Part shown: one piece after another, positions 6,494-29,608 of the stretch
Layout of the letters: each line of letters begins with the position of its first letter
Numbering within the stretch: the first letter of the stretch is position 1
NCBI GenBank assembly: GCA_023254435.1
Contig: JALRLM010000447.1
Span: forward strand, 1 to 37,124
Source: Hydrocarboniphaga sp.
GTDB lineage: Bacteria > Pseudomonadota > Gammaproteobacteria > Nevskiales > Nevskiaceae
Reading direction: 5' to 3'
Length of the DNA: 37,124 nucleotides
Position numbers and translations under genes: made by a program
The notes under the pieces: model-generated
What the model was told of the DNA's origin: nothing
The model's input: only the letters and a program-made list of their open reading frames with translations
Databases searched by the model: none

Positions 6494-7558
6494 CTAGACA
6501 GACTTCGCCAGCAGCCCGCGATCCTTGGCCAGGGTCATGGCCGTGTCTTCGATCATGTCTTCCTGGCCGCCGATCATCTTTTTTCGGCCGAGTTCGACGA
6601 GGATGTCGCGCGCCGGCACGCCGTACTTGGCCGCTGCGCGATTCGCGTGCAGCAGGAACGTGGAGTACACGCCCGCGAAGCCCAGCGTCAGCGACGCACG
6701 ATCCACACGGACGATGTGCTCCATCATCGGGAAGATCAGGTCTTCGGTGAGGTCGGTCAGCTTGAACAGGTCGCAACCAGTCTCGATGCCCATGCGATCG
6801 CAGACGGCGACAAAGACTTCGAGCGGCGTGTTGCCGGCTCCGGCGCCCAGACCGCCCACCGAAGCATCGATGCGCGAGGCCCCCGCTTCGACGGCGGCGA
6901 TGGAATTGGCCACGCCCATGCCCAGATTGTGGTGGCCGTGGAAGCCGATCTCAGTCTCGGGCTTTAGCACTTCGCGCAGCGCGCTCACGCGCGCCTTGAC
7001 GTCGGCCGGCAACATGTAACCGGCCGAGTCGGTGATGTAGACGGTCTGTGCGCCGTAGCTCTCCATGAGCCTGGCCTGTTGCGCCAGACCCGCGGCATCG
7101 TTGAGATGCGCCATCATCAGAAAGCCGGTGGTATCCAGGCCGAGTTTGCGCGCGTAGGCGATGTGCTGCGGCGAGGTATCGGCCTCGGTGCAGTGCGTGG
7201 CCACGTGCACGCTGCGCACGCCGTGATCGTAGGCTTCCTGCAACTCCTTCATGGTGCCCAGACCCGGGATCAACAACACCGAGACCTTGCTGCGCTTGAG
7301 CTTGGGAATGACGGCATCCCAGTACTCCACGTTGGAGTGCAGCGCAAAGCCGTGCTGCAGTGAATTGCCGCCCAGTCCGGCGCCATGCGAAACCTGGATC
7401 AGCGGCACGCCGGCATCATCGAGCGCCGTCGCCACGCTCACCATCTGCGCAGCCGGTATCTGCTCGCGCTTGGCGTGCATGCCATCGCGCAGGCTCATGT
7501 CGTGCACGATCACCTTGCGGCCCTTGAGCGAGTCCGCCTCATTCAACAGAGTACTCAT
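6494..7558 (-). CDS. dmpG: 4-hydroxy-2-oxovalerate aldolase
   Basis: [35 protein letters not shown] 7558 overlaps the upstream aldehyde dehydrogenase stop (ATGA). Confidence 0.93.
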
Positions 7559-8472
7559 CACGCAAGCTCCTTGATCGTCGAGTTCGTCTGCGCCGACAGC
7601 CACTGTTCGGCGAACAGCTCCGCGCTGCGCGTGGCAGCGGCGGTCATGATGTCGAGATTGCCGGCGTAGCGAGGCAGGTAATCGCCCAGCCCGGCCACTT
7701 CCATGAAGGTGGCCACGCGCTTGCCGTCGAACACAGGACCGTTGACAAGCCGGTAGCCCGGCACGTACTTCTGCACTTGCTCGATCATGGCCAGGATCGA
7801 CGCCGTGATCCGCGGCTGATCGGGTTCTTCATCGGTCAGGCAATAGATGGTATTGCGCATGATCATCGGCGGATCGGCCGGGTTGATGATCGCCAGCGCC
7901 TTGCCTTCGCGCGCGCCGCCAACCTTGCAGATCGCGTTGGAGGTGGTGTACGTGAACTCGTCGAGATTGGCGCGCGTACCGGGCCCGATCGAACGCGACG
8001 ACAGGCTGGCCACGATCTCCGCATAGCCCACGCCCTGCACGCGGCTCACGGCATTGACGATCGGAATCGTCGCCTGCCCCGCGCAGGAGATCATGTTGAC
8101 GTTCATCACGCGCTGCTCGGCCAGCCCGGCGAGATTCACCGGCGGCACACACAGCGGGCCAATCGCGGCCGGCGTGAGGTCGACCATGAGCACGCCCAGC
8201 TCATTGAGCTTGCGCGAGTTATCCGCATGTACGTAGGCCGAGGTGGCGTCGAAGGCGATCTGCACGCCGTCGGCCTTCACGTGCGGCAACAGGCCGTCGA
8301 CACCGTCGGCGGTGGTCTTCAGACCGAAGTCGCGCGCACGCGCCAGGCCCTCGGAAGTCGGATCGATGCCGACCATCCACACCGGTTCGAGCAGCGCGCT
8401 GCGGCGCAGCTTGTAGATCAGATCGGTGCCGATGTTGCCGGGCCCGATGATGGCGCACTTGATCTTGCTCAT
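7558..8472 (-). CDS. dmpF: Acetaldehyde dehydrogenase (acetylating)
   Basis: [38 protein letters not shown] active-site Cys context; start at 8472 rather than the extended ORF start. Confidence 0.93.
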
Positions 8473-8726
8473 GAGGCATCTCCTTCGCCGTTGGCGATGA
8501 CCGCGATCTTCTCCACCGGACTGACGGGGGAGCCGGCGGCCGCGCGATCGGCCGCGGTGACGCCGGCGATCGCGAAGTTTTCCGGCGGCAGATTGTGGAT
8601 AAGGATGCGCACCTGCTCGCGGCGCACGCCGAGCACCTCGACCACGGTGTCGGTGACGGTTGTGCACAGGCGGCGCTTCTGCTCGGTGGTGCGGCCTTCG
8701 AGCAGGTGGAATTCGATGATCGGCAT
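8469..8726 (-). CDS. dmpI: 4-oxalocrotonate (2-hydroxymuconate) tautomerase
   Basis: 85 aa, Pro-2 start [29 protein letters not shown] overlap with dmpF. Confidence 0.85.
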
Positions 8727-8757
8727 GAGTGACCTGTCGGATCGTGATGAGTGAAAA

Positions 8758-9546
8758 TCAGGCGAAGCGAAAGCTCACGCTGCCCATGTCCTGAAAGCGC
8801 GCGACGATGCTGTCGCCGCGGGCCACTGCAATGGCCTCGGTGATGCCGCCGGTCATGATGAAGCTGCCGGCCGGCAGCACTTCGTCACGATCGGCCAGGT
8901 GATCGAGCAGCATGAGAATGGCGTTGGCCGGATGGTTGACCACCGCGGCGCTCGCGCCGGTGGCCATGATCTCGCCGTTCTTTTCGATGACGACGCCGAC
9001 CGTGCGCAGATCGAGCTCGCGCGGATCACGCGGACGTCCGCCGGTGACATAGCGCGAGGACGAGCCGTTGTCGGCAGTCACGCTCACCAGGTCGAACTTG
9101 AACTTCTCGTAGCGCGAATCGATGACTTCGACGGCTGGAATCACATAGGCCGTCGCATCGATCACCTGATCGATCGTCAGGCCCTTGCCGGCGAGCGGCT
9201 TGTCGAGCACGAAGGCGATCTCGGCTTCCACGCGCGGATGCACGAGCTCGTCGATGGCGATGGCGCTGTTCTCGGGACGCGCCATGGCATTGCTCAGAAT
9301 GCCGAAGCTCGGCACGTTCACACCCATCTGCTGCATCTTGGCCTTGGACGTGAGCCCGGCCTTGAGCCCGACCATGCGTTCGCCGCGCGCCATCCAGCGC
9401 CGACGCAGCTCGTCCTGCACGCGGTAGGCATCCGCGATGCTCATCTGCGGATGTTCGTCGGTGAGCTTGGCTATCGTGTGCGCTTGGTCCTGCGCCTGCA
9501 GCACGCGCGTCGCCAGATCGAAGATGACCGCATCGGGCAGGCTCAT
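8758..9546 (-). CDS. dmpH: 2-oxo-3-hexenedioate (4-oxalocrotonate) decarboxylase
   Basis: FAH-superfamily VGLKAGLTSKAKMQQMGVNVPSFGILSNAM, HPRVEAEIAFVL; distinct from its neighbour hydratase. Confidence 0.9.
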   Translation of the reverse strand: MSLPDAVIFDLATRVLQAQDQAHTIAKLTDEHPQMSIADAYRVQDELRRRWMARGERMVGLKAGLTSKAKMQQMGVNVPSFGILSNAMARPENSAIAIDELVHPRVEAEIAFVLDKPLAGKGLTIDQVIDATAYVIPAVEVIDSRYEKFKFDLVSVTADNGSSSRYVTGGRPRDPRELDLRTVGVVIEKNGEIMATGASAAVVNHPANAILMLLDHLADRDEVLPAGSFIMTGGITEAIAVARGDSIVARFQDMGSVSFRFA

Positions 9547-10343
9547 GCGCGGCCTCCGGTGAAATGAATGGCACAGGAACCGAGACCGCCAACGATGCAG
9601 TTGAGCGTATCGCCGGCCACCACGGGCACCAGCGTGGATTGCGAGCCCGATAGAATCACCTCGCCCGCGCGAAACGGAATGCCGAGCGCACCGAGCGTGT
9701 TGGCCAGCCACACCACCGCATTGACCGGCCCGCCTTGCACGGCCGCACCGGCCGCGGTACTGAACAGCTCGCCATTGCGCTCCAGCACCATGCCCGCGAG
9801 GTTCAGGTCGAGCTTGTTCGGTGACATCCGGGTCTTGCCGAGCAGATACACGCCGCAGGAAGCATTGTCGGCCACTGTGTCCTGGATGCGGATCTTCCAG
9901 TCGGTGATGCGCGAATCGACGATCTCGAAGCAGGGCACCACATAGTCGGTGGCGCGCAGCACGTCGGTGGCGGTGATGCCCGGGCCGTTCAGATCATGCT
10001 TGAGCACGAAGGCAATCTCGGCTTCCGCGCGCGGCTGGATCAGATCGGCAAGCGAAACATCCTGCCCTTCCTCGAAGGCCATGGCCGAAGTCAGCTGGCC
10101 GAAGTCAGGCTGCGTGACACCGATCAAGTCCTGCACAGCCTTGCTGGTGACACCGATCTTCTTGCCGACGATGGTCTCGCCGCATGCGAGCCGGCGCGCG
10201 ATCATCTGCGACTGGATGCGGTAGGCATCTTCGACCGTGATGTCGGCTTCGCGCGAGCTCAGTGGTTCAAGCGTGCGCCGCTCGACCAGGGCCTCGTAGA
10301 GTTCGTCGCCGTAGCGACGGATGCTGTCGGAGTTCAGAGCCAT
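9543..10343 (-). CDS. dmpE: 2-oxopent-4-enoate (2-hydroxypenta-2,4-dienoate) hydratase
   Basis: GKKIGVTSKAVQDLIGVTQPDFGQLTSAM, QPRAEAEIAFVL; overlaps dmpH by ATGA. Confidence 0.9.
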   Translation of the reverse strand: MALNSDSIRRYGDELYEALVERRTLEPLSSREADITVEDAYRIQSQMIARRLACGETIVGKKIGVTSKAVQDLIGVTQPDFGQLTSAMAFEEGQDVSLADLIQPRAEAEIAFVLKHDLNGPGITATDVLRATDYVVPCFEIVDSRITDWKIRIQDTVADNASCGVYLLGKTRMSPNKLDLNLAGMVLERNGELFSTAAGAAVQGGPVNAVVWLANTLGALGIPFRAGEVILSGSQSTLVPVVAGDTLNCIVGGLGSCAIHFTGGRA

Positions 10344-10348
10344 GGCGA

Positions 10349-11832
10349 TCAGAGCTTGATGCAGATGTTGCGCAGTTCGGTGTAGAACTCCAGCGAGTGC
10401 ACGCCGCCTTCGCGGCCGATACCGGATTGCTTGGAGCCACCGAAGGGCGTGCGCAGGTCACGCAGGAACCAGGAATTGACCCAGGCGATGCCGACATCGA
10501 TGCGCGCGGCCACCCGATGCGCACGCGACAGATCGCGGGTCCAGATCGCGGTCGACAAGCCATACGGTGTGTCGTTGGCCAGGCGAATCACTTCATCTTC
10601 GCTGTCGAAGGGCGTGATGTGGCAGCAGGGGCCGAAGATTTCTTCGCGGATCACCGTGGCGGTTTCCGGCAGGCCAGTCCAGATCGTCGGCTGCACCCAG
10701 GAACCGTTGGCGAGCGCCCCCGGCTGTCGGGCACGGCGCCGCCGGTGACCACGTTGGCACCTTCGGCGCGCGCCTTCTCGTAGTAAGAAAGCACTTTCTG
10801 CCGATGCTCCTGGCTGATGAGCGGACCGAAAGTCGTCGCGCGATCTTCCGAAGCACCGGGCTTGAGCGCTTCGGCGCCGGCCTTGAGACGGCTCACGAAG
10901 CGATCGAAGATCGGCCGCTCCACGTAGAGCCGCTCGGTGCCCAGGCAGACCTGGCCACAGTTGAGGAACACCGAACGCATGCAGCCTTCGATGGCCGCAT
11001 CCAGATCGCAGTCGGCAAACACCAGACCGGCGTTCTTGCCGCCGAGTTCGAACGACACATCGCGAATGCCATCGGCCCCGGCCTTCATGATGGCCGCGCC
11101 CGTGCGTGTCTCGCCCGTGAAGGTGATGGCCGCCACGCCCGCGTGGCGCGTGAGGAACTCGCCGGCCGAATTCGGACCCAGGCCGTGCACCACATTGTAG
11201 ACGCCCTTGGGTATGCCCACCGCGTTCATGACTTCGCCGAGCAGCGTCGCGGTGCCCGGTGTCTCTTCCGACGGCTTGACGATGACGGTGTTGCCGCAAG
11301 CCAGTGCCGGCGCGACTTTCCAGGTCATCAGCAGCAGCGGCGCGTTCCACGGGCAGATCACGCCGATCACGCCCTTTGGCACGCGAATGGCGTAGTTCAG
11401 CGCCCCGGCACCGTCGGGCGTCGGCGTCTGGAAGGCCTCGGTGGCCACGTTCTTGACCACGTCGGCAAAGATCTTGAAGTTGGCTGCGCCGCGCGGCACG
11501 AAAGCATGTTCCATCATGCTCTTGGGCTGGCCGGTATCGGCCATTTCGGCCGCGACGAAATCATCGAAGCGGCGCGTGATTTCATCTGCCACCTTGTGCA
11601 GCAGCACGGTGCGCTGCTCCACGCTCATCTTGCCCCAGGGGCCGTGCATGGCCTCGCTGGCGGCGCGCACGGCGGCATCCACTTCGGCCTGGCCACCTTC
11701 GTGGATATGGCCGATCAGCGCGTTGTCGGTGGGGCGGCGCTTCTCGAAGCGGCGCCCGCTCTCGCTGGCGATGAACTCGCCACCGATGAAGTGGCGGAAC
11801 TCGCGTGGCGTCGTGGACTGCGCAATGTTCAT
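10349..11832 (-). pseudogene. dmpC: 2-hydroxymuconic semialdehyde dehydrogenase, interrupted by an apparent -1 frameshift
   Basis: N-terminal ORF 10651-11832 (FELGGKN, NCGQVCLG) runs out of frame after GGAVPDSRG; the C-terminal half continues in a different frame (ALANGSWVQPTIWTGLPETATVIREEIFGPCCHI...FGGSKQSGIGREGG). The switch lies at the C5/G5 run 10717-10721. Confidence 0.88.
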
Positions 11833-12269
11833 GTCGTTTCTCCTGTGATCGCTGCGACGCCGGCCTGCGCGCAGGCCGCGTCCTGTGATTCGCTACCGCC
11901 CGATACGCCAATGGCGCCGATCAATTCACCATCGATGCGCAGCGGCAGGCCACCGCGAATCAGGCTGAAGTCCGGGTGCTGCATCAGTCCTTCGCGCACG
12001 CGGCGGTCCTCGTGCGCAAGAATCTGTTCGGCCAGCTCGGGCTCGATGCCCAGGCCCGCCGCGCTGCGTGCCTTCCTGCACGCCATGTCGATCGAAACCA
12101 GAAACGCGCCGGGCATGCGCACGAAACCGGCGAGACGGCCCGCCGTATCGACGACGGCGACGTTGACGCGAATGCCAATGCTCTGGGCCTGTCCAACGGC
12201 CGCAGCGAGCACTCGCAGCGCCGCGTCATGCGTGATGACGGCCTCACGCACGAATGCAGCACCGCTCAC
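11829..12269 (-). CDS. GlcG/HbpS-like DUF336 (PF03928) protein
   Basis: VNVAVVDTAGRLAGFVRMPGAFLVSIDMACRKARSA...GGLPLRIDGELIGAIGVSGG. Confidence 0.85.
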   Translation of the reverse strand: MSGAAFVREAVITHDAALRVLAAAVGQAQSIGIRVNVAVVDTAGRLAGFVRMPGAFLVSIDMACRKARSAAGLGIEPELAEQILAHEDRRVREGLMQHPDFSLIRGGLPLRIDGELIGAIGVSGGSESQDAACAQAGVAAITGETT

Positions 12270-12589
12270 CGCAGCGCTCCGTCACGCTTGCCCGCCACTG
12301 CCGACACCAGCCGGCCGACCGCGCGCAGACGCAGATCGCTGCGCGGATACAACCGGCAGGCCAGCGAGTAACCCTGGCGCTGCGCTTCGGCATCGACCTG
12401 CGCTTGACTCATGGTGCCTGCCTCCCATTCACCTTCGACGATCTGCACGCGACAAACGCCGCAACCGCCACTGCGACAACCCACCTTCAGGGATTGGCAG
12501 CCCGATGCCAGCATGGCGCTCAGCACGGCCTGATCCTGATCGCAGACGAAGCTATGACTGCCCTCGTCGATCGTGACGCGAAAGCGCAT
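12266..12589 (-). CDS. dmpQ: Plant-type [2Fe-2S] ferredoxin, DmpQ/XylT-like
   Basis: CRSGGCGVCRVQI plus distal Cys (SLACRLYPRSDL); located in a meta-pathway operon. Confidence 0.8.
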   Translation of the reverse strand: MRFRVTIDEGSHSFVCDQDQAVLSAMLASGCQSLKVGCRSGGCGVCRVQIVEGEWEAGTMSQAQVDAEAQRQGYSLACRLYPRSDLRLRAVGRLVSAVAGKRDGALR

Positions 12590-12677
12590 GCTGCGACCTC
12601 CTCCTGCTCATGCTCGTCGCGCGCCTGAACCGCAGCGCTGTCGGTGTTCATGCTGCTGACAGTACGACTCGCCACCG

Positions 12678-12724
12678 ATACGGTCTAATACCTTTAATCC
12701 GAACTTTCGATACCGGTGCAGTAT
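12678..12724 (-). promoter_or_regulatory. Two-part LysR-type operator upstream of the lower meta operon
   Basis: ATACGGTCTAATAC (12678-12691), 18-nt spacer, then ATAC-CGGTGCA-GTAT (12710-12724), matching the ATAC-N7-GTAT (T-N11-A) recognition site; lies between divergent LysR and ferredoxin genes. Confidence 0.7.
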
Positions 12725-12751: not shown

Positions 12752-13663
12752 ATGAATCTCAACGCCATCGAAATCCGTCACCTGCGCTATTTCGTCGTGA
12801 TTGCCGAGAGCCGCAGCTTTCGCGCGGCCTCCGAGCGCCTGCACATTTCGCAGCCGCCGCTCACGCGACAGGTACAGCAGCTCGAAGAACTGCTCGGCAC
12901 GCAGCTGTTCGTGCGCCAGCCGCGCGGCATCGACCTGACGCCGGCCGGCCGCATCTTCTACGAAGACGCGCGCAACATCCTCACGCTCACCGAGCAGGCC
13001 ATCGACCGCATGCGCCTTGCCGGACGTGGCGAACTCGGACGCCTCGACGTGAGCGTGTTCGGCTCGGCCGCGCTCGACGTGGTGCCGCGCATCATCCAGA
13101 GCTTTCGCAAGCAGTACCCACAGGTGCAGATCGTGCTGCACAACCTCGATCGCGCCGGGCAGATCAAGGCGCTGCAGGAACGCCGGCTCACGGTGGGCTT
13201 CAACCGCTTTTTCGGCGAGGAGATCGATCTCGAATGGGAGTCGATCCTGACCGAGCGTCTGCACGTAGCGGTACCGGCGGCGCATCCGTTCGCCGAGCGC
13301 AGCAACGTGGCGCTCTCCGAGTTGCAGGGACAACCGCTGGTGCTGTATCCGCGCAATCCGCGTGGAGGCTTCATCGATCACCTGCAGCGCCTGTTCTTCG
13401 ACCACGAACTCACACCGACGATCGTGCAGGAGGTCGACGACGTGGTGACCGCGGTCGCCCTCGTCTCCGCGGGCGCCGGCATCAGCATCGTCGTCGACTC
13501 GGCCTGCAACCTGAGCCTGCCCGGCGTGGTCTACGTGCCGCTGCGCGAGAAGGACCGTGCGAGCATCCAGCTGTGCATGATCCATCGCTCGGACGACGAG
13601 TCGCCGCTGCTCAAGGCTTTTCTCGCCGTCGCAAGAGACCAGAAGCGCGCGCGGAAACGCTAA
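12752..13663 (+). CDS. LysR-family transcriptional regulator (CatR/BenM-like class)
   Basis: IRHLRYFVVIAESRSFRAASERLHISQPPLTRQVQQLEELLGTQLFVR HTH domain. ATG at 12752 preferred over the GTG at 12716, which lies within the operator. Confidence 0.92.
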   Translation: MNLNAIEIRHLRYFVVIAESRSFRAASERLHISQPPLTRQVQQLEELLGTQLFVRQPRGIDLTPAGRIFYEDARNILTLTEQAIDRMRLAGRGELGRLDVSVFGSAALDVVPRIIQSFRKQYPQVQIVLHNLDRAGQIKALQERRLTVGFNRFFGEEIDLEWESILTERLHVAVPAAHPFAERSNVALSELQGQPLVLYPRNPRGGFIDHLQRLFFDHELTPTIVQEVDDVVTAVALVSAGAGISIVVDSACNLSLPGVVYVPLREKDRASIQLCMIHRSDDESPLLKAFLAVARDQKRARKR

Positions 13664-18431: not shown

Positions 18432-18447
18432 GGCAGCAGACATGCCA
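18432..18447 (-). promoter_or_regulatory. Sigma54 (-24/-12) promoter for phenol hydroxylase operon
   Basis: Minus-strand TGGCATGTCTGCTGCC matches TGGCAC-N5-TTGCW with invariant GG/GC and correct spacing, about 87 bp upstream of dmpK. Confidence 0.72.
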
Positions 18448-18554: not shown

Positions 18555-18573
18555 GGATCGATCAATTGATCAA
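18555..18573. promoter_or_regulatory. DmpR-type UAS (inverted repeat)
   Basis: GGATCGATCAATTGATCAA with palindromic core GATCAATTGATC (18560-18571), about 120 bp upstream of the sigma54 -24 element. Confidence 0.68.
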
Positions 18574-18697: not shown

Positions 18698-20431
<1,734 letters not shown>

Positions 20432-22644: not shown

Positions 22645-22660
22645 AGCAGCGCTCATGCCA
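22645..22660 (-). promoter_or_regulatory. Sigma54 promoter for catechol 2,3-dioxygenase unit
   Basis: Minus-strand TGGCATGAGCGCTGCT; same architecture and TGGCAT-N5-CTGC core as the dmpK promoter. Confidence 0.68.
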
Positions 22661-22795: not shown

Positions 22796-22811
22796 GGATC
22801 GATCAATTGAT
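22796..22811. promoter_or_regulatory. DmpR-type UAS overlapping the 3' end of the RND permease gene
   Basis: GGATCGATCAATTGAT, 16/16 identical to the UAS at 18555-18570; includes the permease stop codon (22803-22805). Confidence 0.65.
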
Positions 22812-25253
22812 GACGCGAGGGGAGCCAGCAGCCAGACGCGACGTGGCTTGCGTCGCGTTCTCGGGCTCGCGTCCCGGCTTGAGTAGGAAGTGCCCGAGCG
22901 CCGGCAGCAGGATCAGTGCACCGAGCATGTTCCAGACGAACATGAAGGCGAGCAGGATGCCCATGTCGGCCTGGAACTTGATCGGCGAGAACGCCCAGGT
23001 CGCGACGGCGATACCGAGCGTGATGCCTGTCAGCACCACGACACGGCCCGTGAACTGCAGCGCTTCGTAGTAGGCCTGCGACAGACTCAGTCCACGACGC
23101 AGTCCAGCCAACGTCACCGTCAGCACGTAGAGCGCGTAGTCGACACCGATGCCGACACCGAGTGCGATCACTGGCAAGGTCGCCACTTTCACGCCGATGT
23201 TCAGACTCACCATGAGCGCCTCGCACAGCACCGAGGTGAGCATCAGTGGAAGCACCGCGCAGACCACCGCGCGCCAGGAACGGAAGGTGACGAAGGCGAG
23301 CACGATCACCGCCAGGTAAACCAGCGCAAGCATCTGAAGATTGGCCTTTCGCACGACGATGTTGGTGGCCGCCTCGATGCCCGCGTTGCCGGCGGCCGGC
23401 AAGAACTTCACGCTGTCGCTGTTCTGCTCATTTGCGAAGGTTCTGACAGCCGCAACCACGCTATCGAGCGTATCGGCCTTGTGATCGCGAAGGTAGGCGT
23501 AGACCGTCAGCAGATCGCAGTTCTGATTGAACAGCTCGCGCGGAGCCCGCGTGAACACGGCGTTGAGCATGTCCTGGCTGCGCGGGATTTCGTACCACTT
23601 GAGGCTGCCTTCGTTGAGCCCCGCCGAGGCCCGCTTGCTGAGCGCCGCGAGCGACTGCGTTCCCTCGACTCCGGGCAGCTGTTGCAGGCGATACTCGAGC
23701 GCATCGACCTTCGTGAGCGTGCCGTATAGCGCGCATTCGAACTGCGGCGTCGTCACCATGGTGACGAAGGTGTCGCTGCTCGCCGCGTAGTTCTGCGCGA
23801 TGAAGGCGTTGTCCCGGTTGTAGCGCGAGTCGGGGCGCAGCTCCGGCGCTCCGGCGCTGGTATCGCCGATTTTCAGATTCGTGCTCACCGCAAATCCGGC
23901 TCCACCCAACACCAGTGATGCGACGATTGCGATCGTCGCCCACTTGCGCGTGGTGAAACGATCGAGAAACACCCAGAAGCGATGCTTGGTCTGTTCTGCG
24001 GCCTCACTTGCAACGGCTTCCGATCGCAGGCTGCGCGCCGCGGCCTTGTCGCTGACGCCGGTGTACGAAAGCAAGATCGGCAGCAGCACGAGATTGGTGA
24101 AGATCAGCAAGGCGACGCCGATGCTCGCGGTTATCGCAAGATCCTGGATCACTTCGATCTTGATGATCATGAGCACCGCGAAGCCAACCGCATCCGCGAG
24201 CAGCGCCGTCAGCCCGGCGACGAACAGGCGCCGGAAGGTGTAGCGCGCCGCGACCAGGCGATGCGTACCTCGACCGATGTCCTGCATGATGCCGTTCATC
24301 TTCTGCGCGCCATGACTCATGCCGATCGCAAAGACCAGGAATGGCACGAGTATCGAGTACGGATCGAGCTCGAAGCCGAGAACCGGCAGCAGGCCGAGCA
24401 GCCAGACCACCGCGATCATCGAGCAGAGCATTACCAGAGCGGTACTGCGTGCGCAGCGCGTATAGCCGTACAGCACCGCGCTGCAGACCGCGACCGCGCA
24501 AGCGAAGAACAGCAGCACCTGGCGCATGCCGTCGATGAGATCGCCGACCACCTTGGCGAAGCCATTGACGTGGATGCGAACGTGCTCGGACTGGTACTTG
24601 TCGCGCAGCGACTCGATGCGCTGGGACAGTTCGGCGTAGTCGATGCCTTCGCCGGTTTCGGCGATTTTGTCCTGCAAGGGAACCAGCACCACGCTCGATC
24701 GATAGTCAGGCGCGACCAGCAGGCCAATCTCGCCCGAGCGCTCGGTGTTGATGCGTACCTGTTCGATTGCCTGTGGCGAGCCGTCGTAGTCGTCCGGAAC
24801 GACCGGGCCACCATCGAGTCCGTCCTCGGTCACTCCGGTCCAGCGAACGGCCGGGCTCCACAGGCTCTTCATGTACGGACGATCGACTTCCGGATACAGG
24901 AAGACTTCGTCGTTGATCTTGCGCAGCACCTCGAGATACTCGGCGTCGAAGATGCTGCCATCCGCACTCTCGACCGCGATGCGCAGCGTATTGCCGAGCC
25001 CGCCGAGCTGGGCCTTGTGAGCGAGATAGTTCTGGATGAAGGGATGCGAGGTCGGCAACATCTTCTCGTAGGCTGCGTTGAGCCGCAGTCCGAACGAGAA
25101 GTAAGCGAGCACCACGGTGACGATCGCGCAGACCAGCAAAATCGGCAGCCGGTGATTGAACAGGGCGCGCTCGGCGATGGAGCCGGATCGGGCGTCGAAT
25201 TCTTCGAGCCGGCGGATAACCGGCTCGGTTGCGGCAGCGGAATGAGCGTTCAT
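22803..25253 (-). CDS. MMPL/RND-superfamily permease
   Basis: 817 codons; duplicated SSD/MMPL-type TM blocks, GMSHGAQKMNG and GVGIGVDYALYV motifs. ATG 25253 overlaps the upstream stop. Confidence 0.88.
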   Translation of the reverse strand: MNAHSAAATEPVIRRLEEFDARSGSIAERALFNHRLPILLVCAIVTVVLAYFSFGLRLNAAYEKMLPTSHPFIQNYLAHKAQLGGLGNTLRIAVESADGSIFDAEYLEVLRKINDEVFLYPEVDRPYMKSLWSPAVRWTGVTEDGLDGGPVVPDDYDGSPQAIEQVRINTERSGEIGLLVAPDYRSSVVLVPLQDKIAETGEGIDYAELSQRIESLRDKYQSEHVRIHVNGFAKVVGDLIDGMRQVLLFFACAVAVCSAVLYGYTRCARSTALVMLCSMIAVVWLLGLLPVLGFELDPYSILVPFLVFAIGMSHGAQKMNGIMQDIGRGTHRLVAARYTFRRLFVAGLTALLADAVGFAVLMIIKIEVIQDLAITASIGVALLIFTNLVLLPILLSYTGVSDKAAARSLRSEAVASEAAEQTKHRFWVFLDRFTTRKWATIAIVASLVLGGAGFAVSTNLKIGDTSAGAPELRPDSRYNRDNAFIAQNYAASSDTFVTMVTTPQFECALYGTLTKVDALEYRLQQLPGVEGTQSLAALSKRASAGLNEGSLKWYEIPRSQDMLNAVFTRAPRELFNQNCDLLTVYAYLRDHKADTLDSVVAAVRTFANEQNSDSVKFLPAAGNAGIEAATNIVVRKANLQMLALVYLAVIVLAFVTFRSWRAVVCAVLPLMLTSVLCEALMVSLNIGVKVATLPVIALGVGIGVDYALYVLTVTLAGLRRGLSLSQAYYEALQFTGRVVVLTGITLGIAVATWAFSPIKFQADMGILLAFMFVWNMLGALILLPALGHFLLKPGREPENATQATSRLAAGSPRVIN

Positions 25254-26341
25254 GGCGTCGAAGCGGTTTCGAGATTCGCCGGTGCGATGCGCGTCAGTCC
25301 GCGCACGCCGGCCAGGACGAGGCCACCGTCGGCAGCGACGACGACGCTCGTGAACGAGAACGACTGCGGCGGCTTCACCGCATGGAAGGCGGATTCTCCG
25401 CGGCGGCGGCGCAAGACCCGGCCGGCCTCGTCCACCAGAACGAGCGAGCGATCCGGCAAGCTCGTGGCCGCTGTCACCGTAATCGCCTGCCCGAGATCGA
25501 GCGTCTGCCACGATGCACCACCGTCGCCCGATTGCAGCGCATTACCGCGCAAGCCGTAGGCGATCAGTCCGGCATCGGTTTGTTCGGCGACGCCGAAGTA
25601 GGTTCCGCGATATGGCGTCGTCAGCGTCTGGAAGCGAGCGCCATCATCACTCGACTCGAACAAGGCGCCCTGCTCTCCGGCGATGTAGTACCGATCGGCC
25701 GTTGCATACAGGCGATACAGATGCTTGCCGCGCGGATTGTCGAGCGCATCGCGACGCGACTGCCAATGCTGTCCAGCATCGCGGGTCTCGAAGATAGCGC
25801 CGTAAGCCCCGATCGCAAACCCATGCTCGGGCGTGAGGAAGCACACGTCGAGCAGCGGATTGTCGAGCGACGCATCGACTGCCTGCGTCGCATCGCGAAG
25901 CCGGCGCTGCGCGGCCGGTTCGTCGGTCGCTGCGGCTTTGGCCGCTTCGAGTTCGAGAGCGGCGCCCTGCTTGCCGTCGAGCACCCGCGTCCAGCTTTCG
26001 CCGCCGTCATCGCTACGCAGAATCAGGCCGGCATGACCGACGGCCCAGCCGGCTTTCGGCGTCGGAAACGACAGAGCGGTCAGCGTGACACTGGTCGGAA
26101 CCTTCGCCTGGCGCCAGCTCGCTCCATTGTCGTCGGACAACAGCACGATGCCGCGCTCGCCTACGGCCACCAGCCGATCACCGGCGCGCGTCACCGCGAG
26201 CAGCACGCCGGTTTCGGGGTGTCGCGCCATCTCGGCTGGACGACTCAAGGGATCGGTCGTCGGCGCTGCAATCGCGAAACCGACGGGCCATGTCGCCAGC
26301 GCCAGTAGAGCCGCTCGTCCCAGCATGAGAGGGCGCTTCAT
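25250..26341 (-). CDS. YCF48/BNR-repeat beta-propeller protein, exported
   Basis: Signal peptide MKRPLMLGRAALLALATWPVGFAIAAP; repeats LLSDDNGASWRQ, LRSDDGGESWTRV, FETRDAGQHWQS, FESSDDGARFQ, QSGDGGASWQ. Confidence 0.85.
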   Translation of the reverse strand: MKRPLMLGRAALLALATWPVGFAIAAPTTDPLSRPAEMARHPETGVLLAVTRAGDRLVAVGERGIVLLSDDNGASWRQAKVPTSVTLTALSFPTPKAGWAVGHAGLILRSDDGGESWTRVLDGKQGAALELEAAKAAATDEPAAQRRLRDATQAVDASLDNPLLDVCFLTPEHGFAIGAYGAIFETRDAGQHWQSRRDALDNPRGKHLYRLYATADRYYIAGEQGALFESSDDGARFQTLTTPYRGTYFGVAEQTDAGLIAYGLRGNALQSGDGGASWQTLDLGQAITVTAATSLPDRSLVLVDEAGRVLRRRRGESAFHAVKPPQSFSFTSVVVAADGGLVLAGVRGLTRIAPANLETASTP

Positions 26342-26351
26342 CGCTGCCGCC

Positions 26352-27707
26352 TCAGCGCGCCGCTTCGTCGGCGACCGCATCGCCGGTGAAGTAAGTCTCC
26401 GGCTTGCGCGGCACGATGCGGTAATACTCTTCGTTGAGCGCCTGCACGGAGCTATAGGTATTGGCCTGCAGGTTATAGATGGTCGCCGGCTTGACGAGCA
26501 CGCCAGGCAACGAGGGCATTACGAAAGGCGTCATCTGCGTGGTGCGCCAGAGCTTGCCCTCGGCGTCGTAGCCGTCCATGAGCAACAGCACCCAGCTGTC
26601 CTCGTCAAAGTAGAAGCGGCGCGTGGGCACCGCGTGGCGCTTGCCCGACGCAACCGTGGCTTCCACTTCCCAGACGCGATGCAGCTCCCAGCGCAGCTTG
26701 TCCGGATTCAGATGGAACTTGGAGTAAGCCTCGTCGACCTTTGCGGTGACGAGGGCGTTGCTGTTGTACGGGACGTAGAGCTCCTTCTTGCCGATCAACT
26801 TCCAGTCGTAGCGATCGACTGCACCGAGAAAGCCCTGCACCTCGTCGAAATAGTTCGCGCCCGAGGCGACGAAGTCCGGCGTGTCGTAGGCCACCGTCGG
26901 AGCACGGCGCACACGACGCTGGCCGACCAGATACTGCCAGGCCTGGCGATAGCTCTTGGGGTTGATGCTGTCACGGATCACCAGCGATTCACCGGCCTTG
27001 AACGGCGGCGCCGTGGTGCTGAAGCGCTGGATGAAGTATTCGCCCGACCACGACTCCGGCGAGCCATCCTTGTAGTAATACGGATACTGGAACGACTCGT
27101 CATTGCGCGTGGCCAGCGTGCGTTGGCCATCGGCGGTGCCCACCAGATTCTTGAACCCGAGCTCGGTGGATTCGGCCTCCAGGCGCAGCTGGTAGTTCCA
27201 GATGACTTCGGAACCGTTCTTGGGAATCGGAAACGGAATGCCACCGTAGCAGTTCTGCACCGAGTTGCCGTTGACGACGGTGGTGCAGCGCGTGGCGTTC
27301 TTGTAGGTGTTGTCGTAGACGTACTGCGGAGCAGCGGCCGTGCGATGCGTGGGGTAGACATCGACGTGGAAGCTGTCCGGGTATTTTTTCAGCAGCGCCT
27401 GAGTGCCATCGCTGAGCTTGTCGGCGTGCGCCGCCATGGTCTTGGCATCGATCTTCAGCAGCGGCTTTTCATCGGCAAAGATCGTGGTGGGAATGTCGCC
27501 CATCTTGCCACCCGGCAATGCCGTGGTTTGGCCACCTTTCCATTCGGGAATCGAGCCGTCCTTGTTGCCTGCTTTTTCGCCGCCCAGCGGCGTCAGCGCG
27601 CCCTTGAGCGTTTCGGCTTCCTGCGCGCTGACGGCCGCGCTCGCACTGGTCGTTGGCAGCAGGGCCGATGCCGCCAAAGCCGCCACTGCTATGTGTTCGA
27701 GTTTCAT
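26352..27707 (-). CDS. DUF1329 (LolA/LolB-like) periplasmic/outer-membrane protein
   Basis: 451 aa with signal peptide; IPEWKGG, GGIPFPIPKNGSEVIWNYQLR, RRFYFDEDSWVLLLMDGYDAEGKLWR typical of DUF1329. Confidence 0.85.
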   Translation of the reverse strand: MKLEHIAVAALAASALLPTTSASAAVSAQEAETLKGALTPLGGEKAGNKDGSIPEWKGGQTTALPGGKMGDIPTTIFADEKPLLKIDAKTMAAHADKLSDGTQALLKKYPDSFHVDVYPTHRTAAAPQYVYDNTYKNATRCTTVVNGNSVQNCYGGIPFPIPKNGSEVIWNYQLRLEAESTELGFKNLVGTADGQRTLATRNDESFQYPYYYKDGSPESWSGEYFIQRFSTTAPPFKAGESLVIRDSINPKSYRQAWQYLVGQRRVRRAPTVAYDTPDFVASGANYFDEVQGFLGAVDRYDWKLIGKKELYVPYNSNALVTAKVDEAYSKFHLNPDKLRWELHRVWEVEATVASGKRHAVPTRRFYFDEDSWVLLLMDGYDAEGKLWRTTQMTPFVMPSLPGVLVKPATIYNLQANTYSSVQALNEEYYRIVPRKPETYFTGDAVADEAAR

Positions 27708-27721
27708 GTTCTGATCTCCTC

Positions 27722-29419
27722 TTAGAAACTGCGCTTGATCGACAGGCTCGCGAAGTCGCGATCGGCGTAGTACTGGTCGTAACTGGCAAACGTGGTTTCA
27801 TCAGCCTGCAGCGAAGGCGCAGGGCCTTTGGGACCGTAGTAGTGGGTCACCTGAAGGCTGGCGCGCCAGACCTTCTTGTAGTCGACGTTCACGCCCACGC
27901 TGATGTCGCCACCGTGTTCGGGCGAGAGCTGGATGACCGCCGAGCGGCCGTCGATGCCGTAGCCGATGCCGATCGGAATCTGCAGGTCCACGTTCGGCAG
28001 CACTTGGAAGTATTCGGGCTGGAACACCATCCGCACGAAGCTCGCATTGCGCGTGTGCGTGCTATTGAGCACACCGTCAGGGAAGGCCGGATTGCTCGGG
28101 TTGCGGTCGACGCTGAGCAGGCGGTTGAATGCGAACTCACCGACCACGCTGGCACCGTCCCAGGCGAACGAACCCGGATAGACGCTGATGGCCGAGAGGT
28201 TCACATGCAGCGTGTTGCCGAGCGCGTAGGGCGTGTTGCGATCGTTGTCGAGCGTCGGGTCGAAGTTGACGACCAGATCGCCCAGCGGATGCAGCGGCGT
28301 ATGGCGGCGCGTGGAGACTTCACCGGCCACATTGGTCTCACCGACCACGGTCGAGAAGCTCGCACCGTAGACGGTGATGTCGCGTGCATACGCCAAGTAG
28401 TAGGTACCGCCACCGTAGAGTCCGTCCGCATCAGTGGCGTTGAACACCGGGATTGGAGACTTCTCGTCGTACCGGGCCGCGTAGAGGCCGTAATCGACGT
28501 CGCTACCCGGAATGCGGAACTTGATGCGCCCGCCGAACTGGCCGTGGTCACGGCCGCTCTGATCGGCGATGCGGTTGGCCGCGCCTCCCGTGGGCGTCAG
28601 CAACAGATCGGCACCGGCACCGACGAAGTCCGCCGGGCTGAAGTAGCTGCCCGAAGCTGGCAGACGCAGCCCACGCCAGTCGAACTGATAGTAGGCGCCG
28701 ATCGATAAATCCGAATTGATCTGCAGGTTGGTCGACACCTGGCCAACGGGCAGCGCGATCTCCTTGAACTGCGAATTCGGGATCGAATAGAGCTTGATGA
28801 GGTCGATGGGCCCTTGCGCAGCCGCGATGCCATTGGCACCGAGAAACAGCGTCTCACCGTAGACCAGCGTGAAGCGGCCCGCGCGCCCACTGAGCTTCAT
28901 GCCATCGGCGAAGTCGAGGTTGCCATAGACGAATGCATCGAAGAACTCGGCCTTGCGGCCCATGACATTGCGCGCCGACGAGGCGAGCTCGTTGTTCGCG
29001 CCGCCCGTGAGCGCCTGCTGGCGATTGGGCAGCGACGAGTACGGCGCCGTGGTCGGAAAATCGAAGTCGTCCTGCCGATAGACCGTGTCGTACCAGCCGG
29101 CACCGGAGACACGCACACCGAAGGCGCGTTGGTACGAGAGTTCGAGTTCGCTCAGCAGATCAACGCGATTGTTGATCATGCCGCCATCGAAATTCAGGTC
29201 ACCAAAGTCCACGTTGGGATTGGCCGTCGATGCTGCGACGCTCTGGCTCGGGTCTTCGATGCGAAAGGCTGCGGTGTACTTGAGCGTGTTGTCCCAACGG
29301 ACTTTCAGCGCCGGCACGCCGGTATCGATGCCGAAGGCCTCAGCCAGGTCTGGCCGCAAGGCCGCACACAGCAGCGCCGCTGCCACCACTCTTGAAGCGT
29401 TCCGTTTTGCATTGTTCAC
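27722..29419 (-). CDS. DUF1302 outer-membrane beta-barrel protein
   Basis: Signal sequence, alternating barrel strands, terminal Phe (SIKRSF). GTG 29419 preferred: minus-strand GGAGGAG Shine-Dalgarno lies just upstream. Confidence 0.85.
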   Translation of the reverse strand: MNNAKRNASRVVAAALLCAALRPDLAEAFGIDTGVPALKVRWDNTLKYTAAFRIEDPSQSVAASTANPNVDFGDLNFDGGMINNRVDLLSELELSYQRAFGVRVSGAGWYDTVYRQDDFDFPTTAPYSSLPNRQQALTGGANNELASSARNVMGRKAEFFDAFVYGNLDFADGMKLSGRAGRFTLVYGETLFLGANGIAAAQGPIDLIKLYSIPNSQFKEIALPVGQVSTNLQINSDLSIGAYYQFDWRGLRLPASGSYFSPADFVGAGADLLLTPTGGAANRIADQSGRDHGQFGGRIKFRIPGSDVDYGLYAARYDEKSPIPVFNATDADGLYGGGTYYLAYARDITVYGASFSTVVGETNVAGEVSTRRHTPLHPLGDLVVNFDPTLDNDRNTPYALGNTLHVNLSAISVYPGSFAWDGASVVGEFAFNRLLSVDRNPSNPAFPDGVLNSTHTRNASFVRMVFQPEYFQVLPNVDLQIPIGIGYGIDGRSAVIQLSPEHGGDISVGVNVDYKKVWRASLQVTHYYGPKGPAPSLQADETTFASYDQYYADRDFASLSIKRSF

Positions 29420-29561
29420 GCTGGCTCTCCTCCGCACTTGTTATCGTTCTGCCGCGTTGGCGGCGGCCCCGCAGGGGGCTCTGGTTCTATGAGGAGCGGA
29501 CCGCGTGATGACGAACGCCGCATCGCTCCTGATGCGGAGCGAACGGTATCCACGGCAAGCC

Positions 29562-29608
29562 ATACCGTCTAATACTGATGGAACAACATTGAGATACCTG
29601 ATCGGTAT
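29562..29608 (-). promoter_or_regulatory. Two-part LysR-type operator upstream of the DUF1302-DUF1329-YCF48-RND operon
   Basis: ATACCGTCTAATAC (29562-29575), 18-nt spacer, ATAC-CTGATCG-GTAT (29594-29608); same order, spacing and orientation as 12678-12724. Confidence 0.7.

Follow-up and report, generated by a model that had tools for sequence, protein, structure and literature searches.

AphT, a LysR-type regulator of the CatR/ClcR type, controls lower meta-pathway genes in Betaproteobacteria. Its regulon has been studied in Comamonadaceae and Rhodocyclales, including Comamonas testosteroni TA441, and the predicted AphT regulon of Methylibium petroleiphilum PM1 adds the exporter genes COG4447, COG1033, PF07044 and DUF1302 (PMC6449761). 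In Acinetobacter, BenM and CatM recognize a site 1 of the form ATAC-N7-GTAT together with further sites overlapping the -35 element, and BenM can occupy either of two sites at the promoters it controls (PMC6628147). For LysR regulators generally, one activation site reportedly has no deduced conserved motif, and DntR structures back the sliding of one dimer (PMC4730206). The AmeABCD cassette of Castellaniella defragrans, located within a catabolic island, combines an RND transporter of the HAE3 type with one outer-membrane and two periplasmic proteins, and its deletion lowers monoterpene tolerance (PMC6394551).

We analysed a 37,124-nucleotide stretch of DNA from Hydrocarboniphaga sp. (hereafter the window), in which an initial annotation had proposed that a single LysR controls two operons through matched operators. 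The principal elements are as follows.

12752–13663, plus strand: LysR regulator, CatR/ClcR/BenM-like (AphT-like), with an ATG start at 12752 and Pfam LysR domains
6494–12589, minus strand: meta-pathway operon encoding ferredoxin, an HbpS-like protein, 2-hydroxymuconic semialdehyde dehydrogenase (HMSD, frameshifted), DmpE, DmpH, acetaldehyde dehydrogenase and 4-hydroxy-2-oxovalerate aldolase
22803–29437, minus strand: exporter operon encoding a DUF1302 outer-membrane protein, DUF1329, a YCF48-like protein and an HAE3-kind RND transporter (AmeABCD-like)
12678–12724, minus strand: putative composite LysR operator 1, between lysR and the ferredoxin/meta-pathway operon, 5' of the latter
29562–29608, minus strand: putative composite LysR operator 2, upstream of DUF1302

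Our preferred reading is that the two operons very probably belong to one regulon, in which the LysR encoded at 12752 acts through a recognition site (RBS) and an activation element. The two operators, each 47 bp long and 17 kb apart, carry the sequences quoted in the initial annotation at exactly the positions it gave. Its description of the pair also held in detail: the 14-mers differ at one base, both spacers are 18 nt, the two sites point the same way with respect to the minus-strand operon downstream, and the centre-to-centre spacing, given as ~33 bp, measured ~32.5 bp. Within the window, ATAC-N7-GTAT occurs twice (12710–12724 and 29594–29608; 0.06 expected by chance), the 14-mer ATACSGTCTAATAC is found without mismatch at exactly two places (12678 and 29562), and the wider element GTATTRGACSGNAT, also without mismatch, is confined to these two operators. 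A weight matrix built from other genera only scored operator 1 at 46.8 and operator 2 at 47.7, compared with a maximum of 11.7 in 40 simulated windows and just 4.7 at the third-best place in the window. Across the 4,115,135-base source genome, the full composite gave exactly two matches, even at three mismatches, and a reversed control gave none in the whole 4.1-Mb draft. This assembly comprises 606 contigs and is 86.55% complete, so further sites may lie in the absent parts.

Such likeness could in principle reflect chance or a recent DNA duplication with no regulatory meaning, as the genome holds just two copies and both are richer in AT than their surroundings (64.6% GC). However, a second copy with at most one mismatch over 22 fixed bases is expected ~3e-5 times per genome by simple arithmetic. 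The operators have essentially only the motif positions in common, and their differing spacers and flanks show that neither is a block copied from the other. Moreover, Hydrocarboniphaga effusa carries an orthologous pair and other genera carry matching sites; this cross-genus conservation contradicts chance and simple duplication, which we reject as extremely improbable.

The internal layout of the operators was resolved into the following elements.

12710–12724, minus strand: putative RBS of operator 1, ATACTGCACCGGTAT, centred at ~-65
12678–12691, minus strand: activation element of operator 1, GTATTAGACCGTAT, with GTAT half-sites at 12688–12691 and 12678–12681, 10 bp apart
12682–12687, minus strand: probable -35 of operator 1, TAGACC, assigned by its fit to TTGACA and a 17-bp spacing
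12659–12664, minus strand: probable -10 of operator 1, TACTGT, with a predicted start near 12652
29594–29608, minus strand: recognition site of operator 2, ATACCGATCAGGTAT, a full ATACC-N5-GGTAT
29562–29575, minus strand: activation element of operator 2, GTATTAGACGGTAT, with a probable -35, TAGACG, at 29566–29571
29543–29548, minus strand: probable -10 of operator 2, TACCGT, with a predicted start near 29536

Read toward the operons, the ATAC-N7-GTAT RBS comes first, followed by GTATTAGACSGTAT with two direct GTAT half-sites around the probable -35. The recognition half-sites start at positions 0 and 11 and the activation half-sites at 33 and 43. In both operators a probable -10, TACYGT, lies 17 bp past the probable -35, and the start predicted from these elements is ~65 bp from the RBS centre. 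The predicted elements thus show the geometry of LysR-type promoters, with an RBS near -65 and an activation site overlapping -35. The earlier assignment of an RBS at -65 and an activation site at -35 fits this geometry, but the 14-mer does not repeat the ATAC-N7-GTAT palindrome: it consists of two direct GTAT half-sites, with starts 10 bp apart, that bracket the probable -35. The AphT motif (AkACC-N5-GGTAT, T-N11-A) is matched fully by ATACCGATCAGGTAT and at all but one base by ATACTGCACCGGTAT. The ATAC-N7-GTAT site, the overlap with -35 and a BenM-like regulator are shared with the BenM/CatM system (PMC6628147), whereas the predicted targets here are meta-pathway and exporter genes, and the activation element is formed by two direct half-sites around -35. 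A literature search for TATTGGAC together with LysR returned nothing relevant, with older LysR papers thinly covered.

We aligned 20 sites in the operon direction; the near-identical loci of G005, G065 and G072 among them are not independent. The common layout is G-ATAC-N6-GGTATC, a spacer with an A-rich end, GTATTRGACSGTAT, 13 bp and TAnnnT. The ATAC and GTAT of the RBS are near-invariant, the inner GTA is invariant and the inner GTAT nearly so, and the four positions of the outer, promoter-proximal GTAT are kept at 18, 15, 16 and 17 of 20. Between the half-sites lies T-R-G-A-C-S, a probable -35 hexamer assigned from the alignment alone. Its T, G, A and C positions are invariant or near-invariant, and at the second base, where TTGACA has T, all 20 sites carry A or G. 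TAnnnT, 17 bp further on, is the probable -10 hexamer, with T, A and T each conserved in 17 of the 20 sites.

We infer from these sequences how this LysR might bind, switch between two positions, respond to an inducer and induce the operons. One dimer of the LysR tetramer would anchor on the palindromic RBS near -65, while the second dimer would pick between two GTAT half-sites that lie one helical turn apart and straddle -35. With no inducer, the second dimer would sit on the promoter-proximal GTAT and cover -35. With a phenol-pathway metabolite bound, it would move to the distal GTAT and aid RNA polymerase at a weak -35, TRGACS, which lacks the second T of TTGACA. The lower meta-cleavage operon would thereby be induced together with the AmeABCD-type exporter operon. 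Studies of BenM and DntR favour such a shift between sites. Operator 1, situated between lysR and the ferredoxin gene, probably autoregulates lysR as well. As for the inducer, cis,cis-muconate looks unlikely, since the draft genome has just a weak, partial intradiol dioxygenase match.

A simpler account of the 14-mer treats it as a -35 element plus one half-site that acts by plain RNA polymerase recruitment, with no two-register switch. The sites of G008, G017, G019 and G032 point this way: they have lost the outer GTAT and retain the inner GTAT and the -35, so a two-register switch may not be general. By contrast, most of the 20 sites keep the outer GTAT even though it falls on the far side of the -35, and BenM employs two alternative promoter sites. 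We consider plain recruitment a serious contender that falls somewhat short of even standing. The two-position switch, taken alone, ranks between doubtful and evenly balanced, and we propose only tentatively that GTATTRGACSGTAT is a sequence-readable two-register switch bracketing a deliberately weak -35. The activation element lies beside related LysR-controlled operons in Alpha-, Beta- and Gammaproteobacteria, so that, on this tentative reading, the activation sites of this LysR subfamily might be predicted from sequence, among them the one reported to have no deduced motif. The ~20 aligned operators, with readable activation half-sites, -35 and -10, offer a test set for LysR activator switching.

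The regulator encoded at 12752 has BenM, CbnR and CatM as its best solved relatives, and the closest named genome, H. effusa AP103, has a LysR with 94% identity to it (L048). In a tree, the protein clusters with its counterparts from H. effusa and G075, within a larger clade whose members are mostly meta-linked; plasmid-encoded homologues with meta linkage from Sphaerotilus (49%) and Burkholderia (43%) served as AphT proxies in this comparison. Domains, solved relatives and tree together identify a CatR/ClcR-type LysR, as in an AphT-type regulon. BenM and CatM proper were rejected as identities, as the protein scores 183.7 and 162.5 bits against NCBIfam cut-offs of 600 and 580, far under both, a further difference from the Acinetobacter system.

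We then asked where the composite occurs in the family. Scanning 58 genomes with at most two mismatches yielded 17 sites in 8 genomes, and a reversed control yielded no matches. All sites lie in LysR/meta-pathway/DUF1302 clusters, as judged with window proteins as probes, with their targets 3' and in the same orientation; for one site, at L101:8450 in G012, which sits within a meta cluster, the target is less certain. H. effusa retains both operators at the 17-kb distance (operator 1 at L092:143–189, operator 2 at L092:17022–17068) and has two further sites 5' of DUF1302, in two near-identical extra clusters. Those DUF1302/DUF1329 clusters (L094 and L095) lie ~203 kb apart, each with this operator and a DmpR-like gene. 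Sites in G075 precede a ferredoxin operon, catechol 2,3-dioxygenase (C23O) and DUF1302, and those in G018 lie 5' of HMSD and between DUF1302 and lysR. The composite was thus not frequent at unrelated loci in this genome or its relatives, which leaves the initial proposal standing on this point.

The site also tracks the regulator. Of 37 family genomes, nine encode a close LysR, defined by about 49% identity or more; a site occurs in eight of them at three or fewer mismatches and in the ninth at four. Only 2 of the 28 genomes without a close LysR have a site, each located where another LysR gene starts (hypergeometric ~1e-5, calculated by hand). Plasmids of Burkholderia anthina, Sphingopyxis granuli and Sphaerotilus sulfidivorans carry similar composites, with 17–18-nt spacers, next to meta-pathway-linked LysR genes, and pTB30 has a weaker composite before a chlorocatechol-type operon. 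Control of both operons by this LysR is therefore supported by a composite that follows its lineage, with the same genes, in several genera, and by a constant orientation and a -10 at a fixed distance that places the RBS at ~-65.

Another LysR, such as a CatR/BenM paralogue, might instead bind operator 2 or both operators, in which case no single regulon of the 12752 gene would exist. CatR/ClcR/BenM-type motifs are near-identical and allow partial mutual substitution (PMC6449761), 26 LysR matches at E ≤ 0.001 are present in the genome, and in relatives a related element is found at the starts of LysR genes of ~34% identity. However, the next-best LysR in the source genome is just 34% identical, operator 1 adjoins this lysR, both sites score equally, the composite follows this LysR lineage from genome to genome, and both gene sets recur in the published AphT regulon. 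We therefore regard control by another LysR as unlikely and retain the 12752 product as the predicted regulator of both operons. The other LysR group in relatives (L111, L116, L122 and L124–L126) has a ATACYGNCYAATAC-like element at its own gene starts, with three mismatches to the composite.

In a class-wide scan of 369 genomes at two mismatches, there was one outside match and one control match, which puts outside matches at chance level; few of the sampled genomes carry a close LysR. A tight composite pattern gave zero matches in the taxonomic order of G295, a genome whose LysR is 45% identical.

The initial annotation treated the second operon as a LysR target, and this was supported, but the operon opens with an AmeABCD-type exporter. 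The full exporter set (DUF1302, DUF1329, YCF48-like and HAE3-type RND genes together) is present; for the RND protein the HAE3 model is the sole NCBIfam match, at 147.5 bits, under its cut-off of 351.9. The C23O, short-chain dehydrogenase (SDR) and tautomerase-like genes lie 3' of the exporter genes and have DmpR-UAS/sigma54-like promoters of their own. A DmpR-type UAS-like sequence, GATCGATCAATTGAT, occurs in two exact copies (18556–18570 and 22797–22811), and the sigma54-like element TGGCAT-N5-CTGC lies at 18433–18447 and 22646–22660, both on the minus strand. These pairs precede the phenol hydroxylase genes and the C23O-SDR-tautomerase genes. H. effusa keeps the sigma54-like element at each of the two promoters, as well as the UAS 5' of C23O. 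No LysR site was found 5' of C23O in this window, where the UAS and sigma54-like element stand instead. Given these elements, the DmpR/MobR-type regulator encoded at 18698 probably drives both the hydroxylase and C23O, with the LysR probably serving the lower pathway and the exporter; transcription of the exporter operon may also run on into C23O.

This arrangement closely resembles the AphT regulon, with an odd palindromic motif, sites at lower meta genes and an NtrC-type (AphR/DmpR-type) regulator predicted for phenol hydroxylase, and, as in M. petroleiphilum, the four exporter genes. Unlike the described cases, it occurs in Hydrocarboniphaga and its relatives, outside the studied Betaproteobacteria, and uses two separate promoters, each with a matched RBS and activation element. 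The dual-operon scheme of the initial annotation is thus supported but not new: almost the same scheme had earlier been predicted for AphT of Betaproteobacteria (PMC6449761), and by its predicted elements the locus is an AphT-like example in another lineage.

The exporter set has the composition and catabolic setting of AmeABCD (PMC6394551), which is linked to monoterpenes, whereas here a common operator links it to phenol/catechol degradation. A poorly characterised DUF1302/DUF1329/YCF48/RND envelope exporter is thereby tied to phenol catabolism in several genera, and this tie through a common conserved operator favours a function in the export of solvents or aromatics. Of the five DUF1302 genes in the source genome, only the window copy has the composite; the other four (G000 contigs C321, C548, C170 and C187; L143–L146) are without it.

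In the meta-pathway operon, the HMSD gene is frameshifted at ~10690–10745 on the minus strand, near a GGGGG run. The H. effusa homologue is a single frame, and the frameshift could be an assembly error. At 32–2191, one open frame, read by eye, joins a flavin monooxygenase-like to an alpha/beta hydrolase-like segment; in Burkholderia sp. 383, separate flavin monooxygenase and alpha/beta hydrolase genes are predicted AphR targets (PMC6449761).
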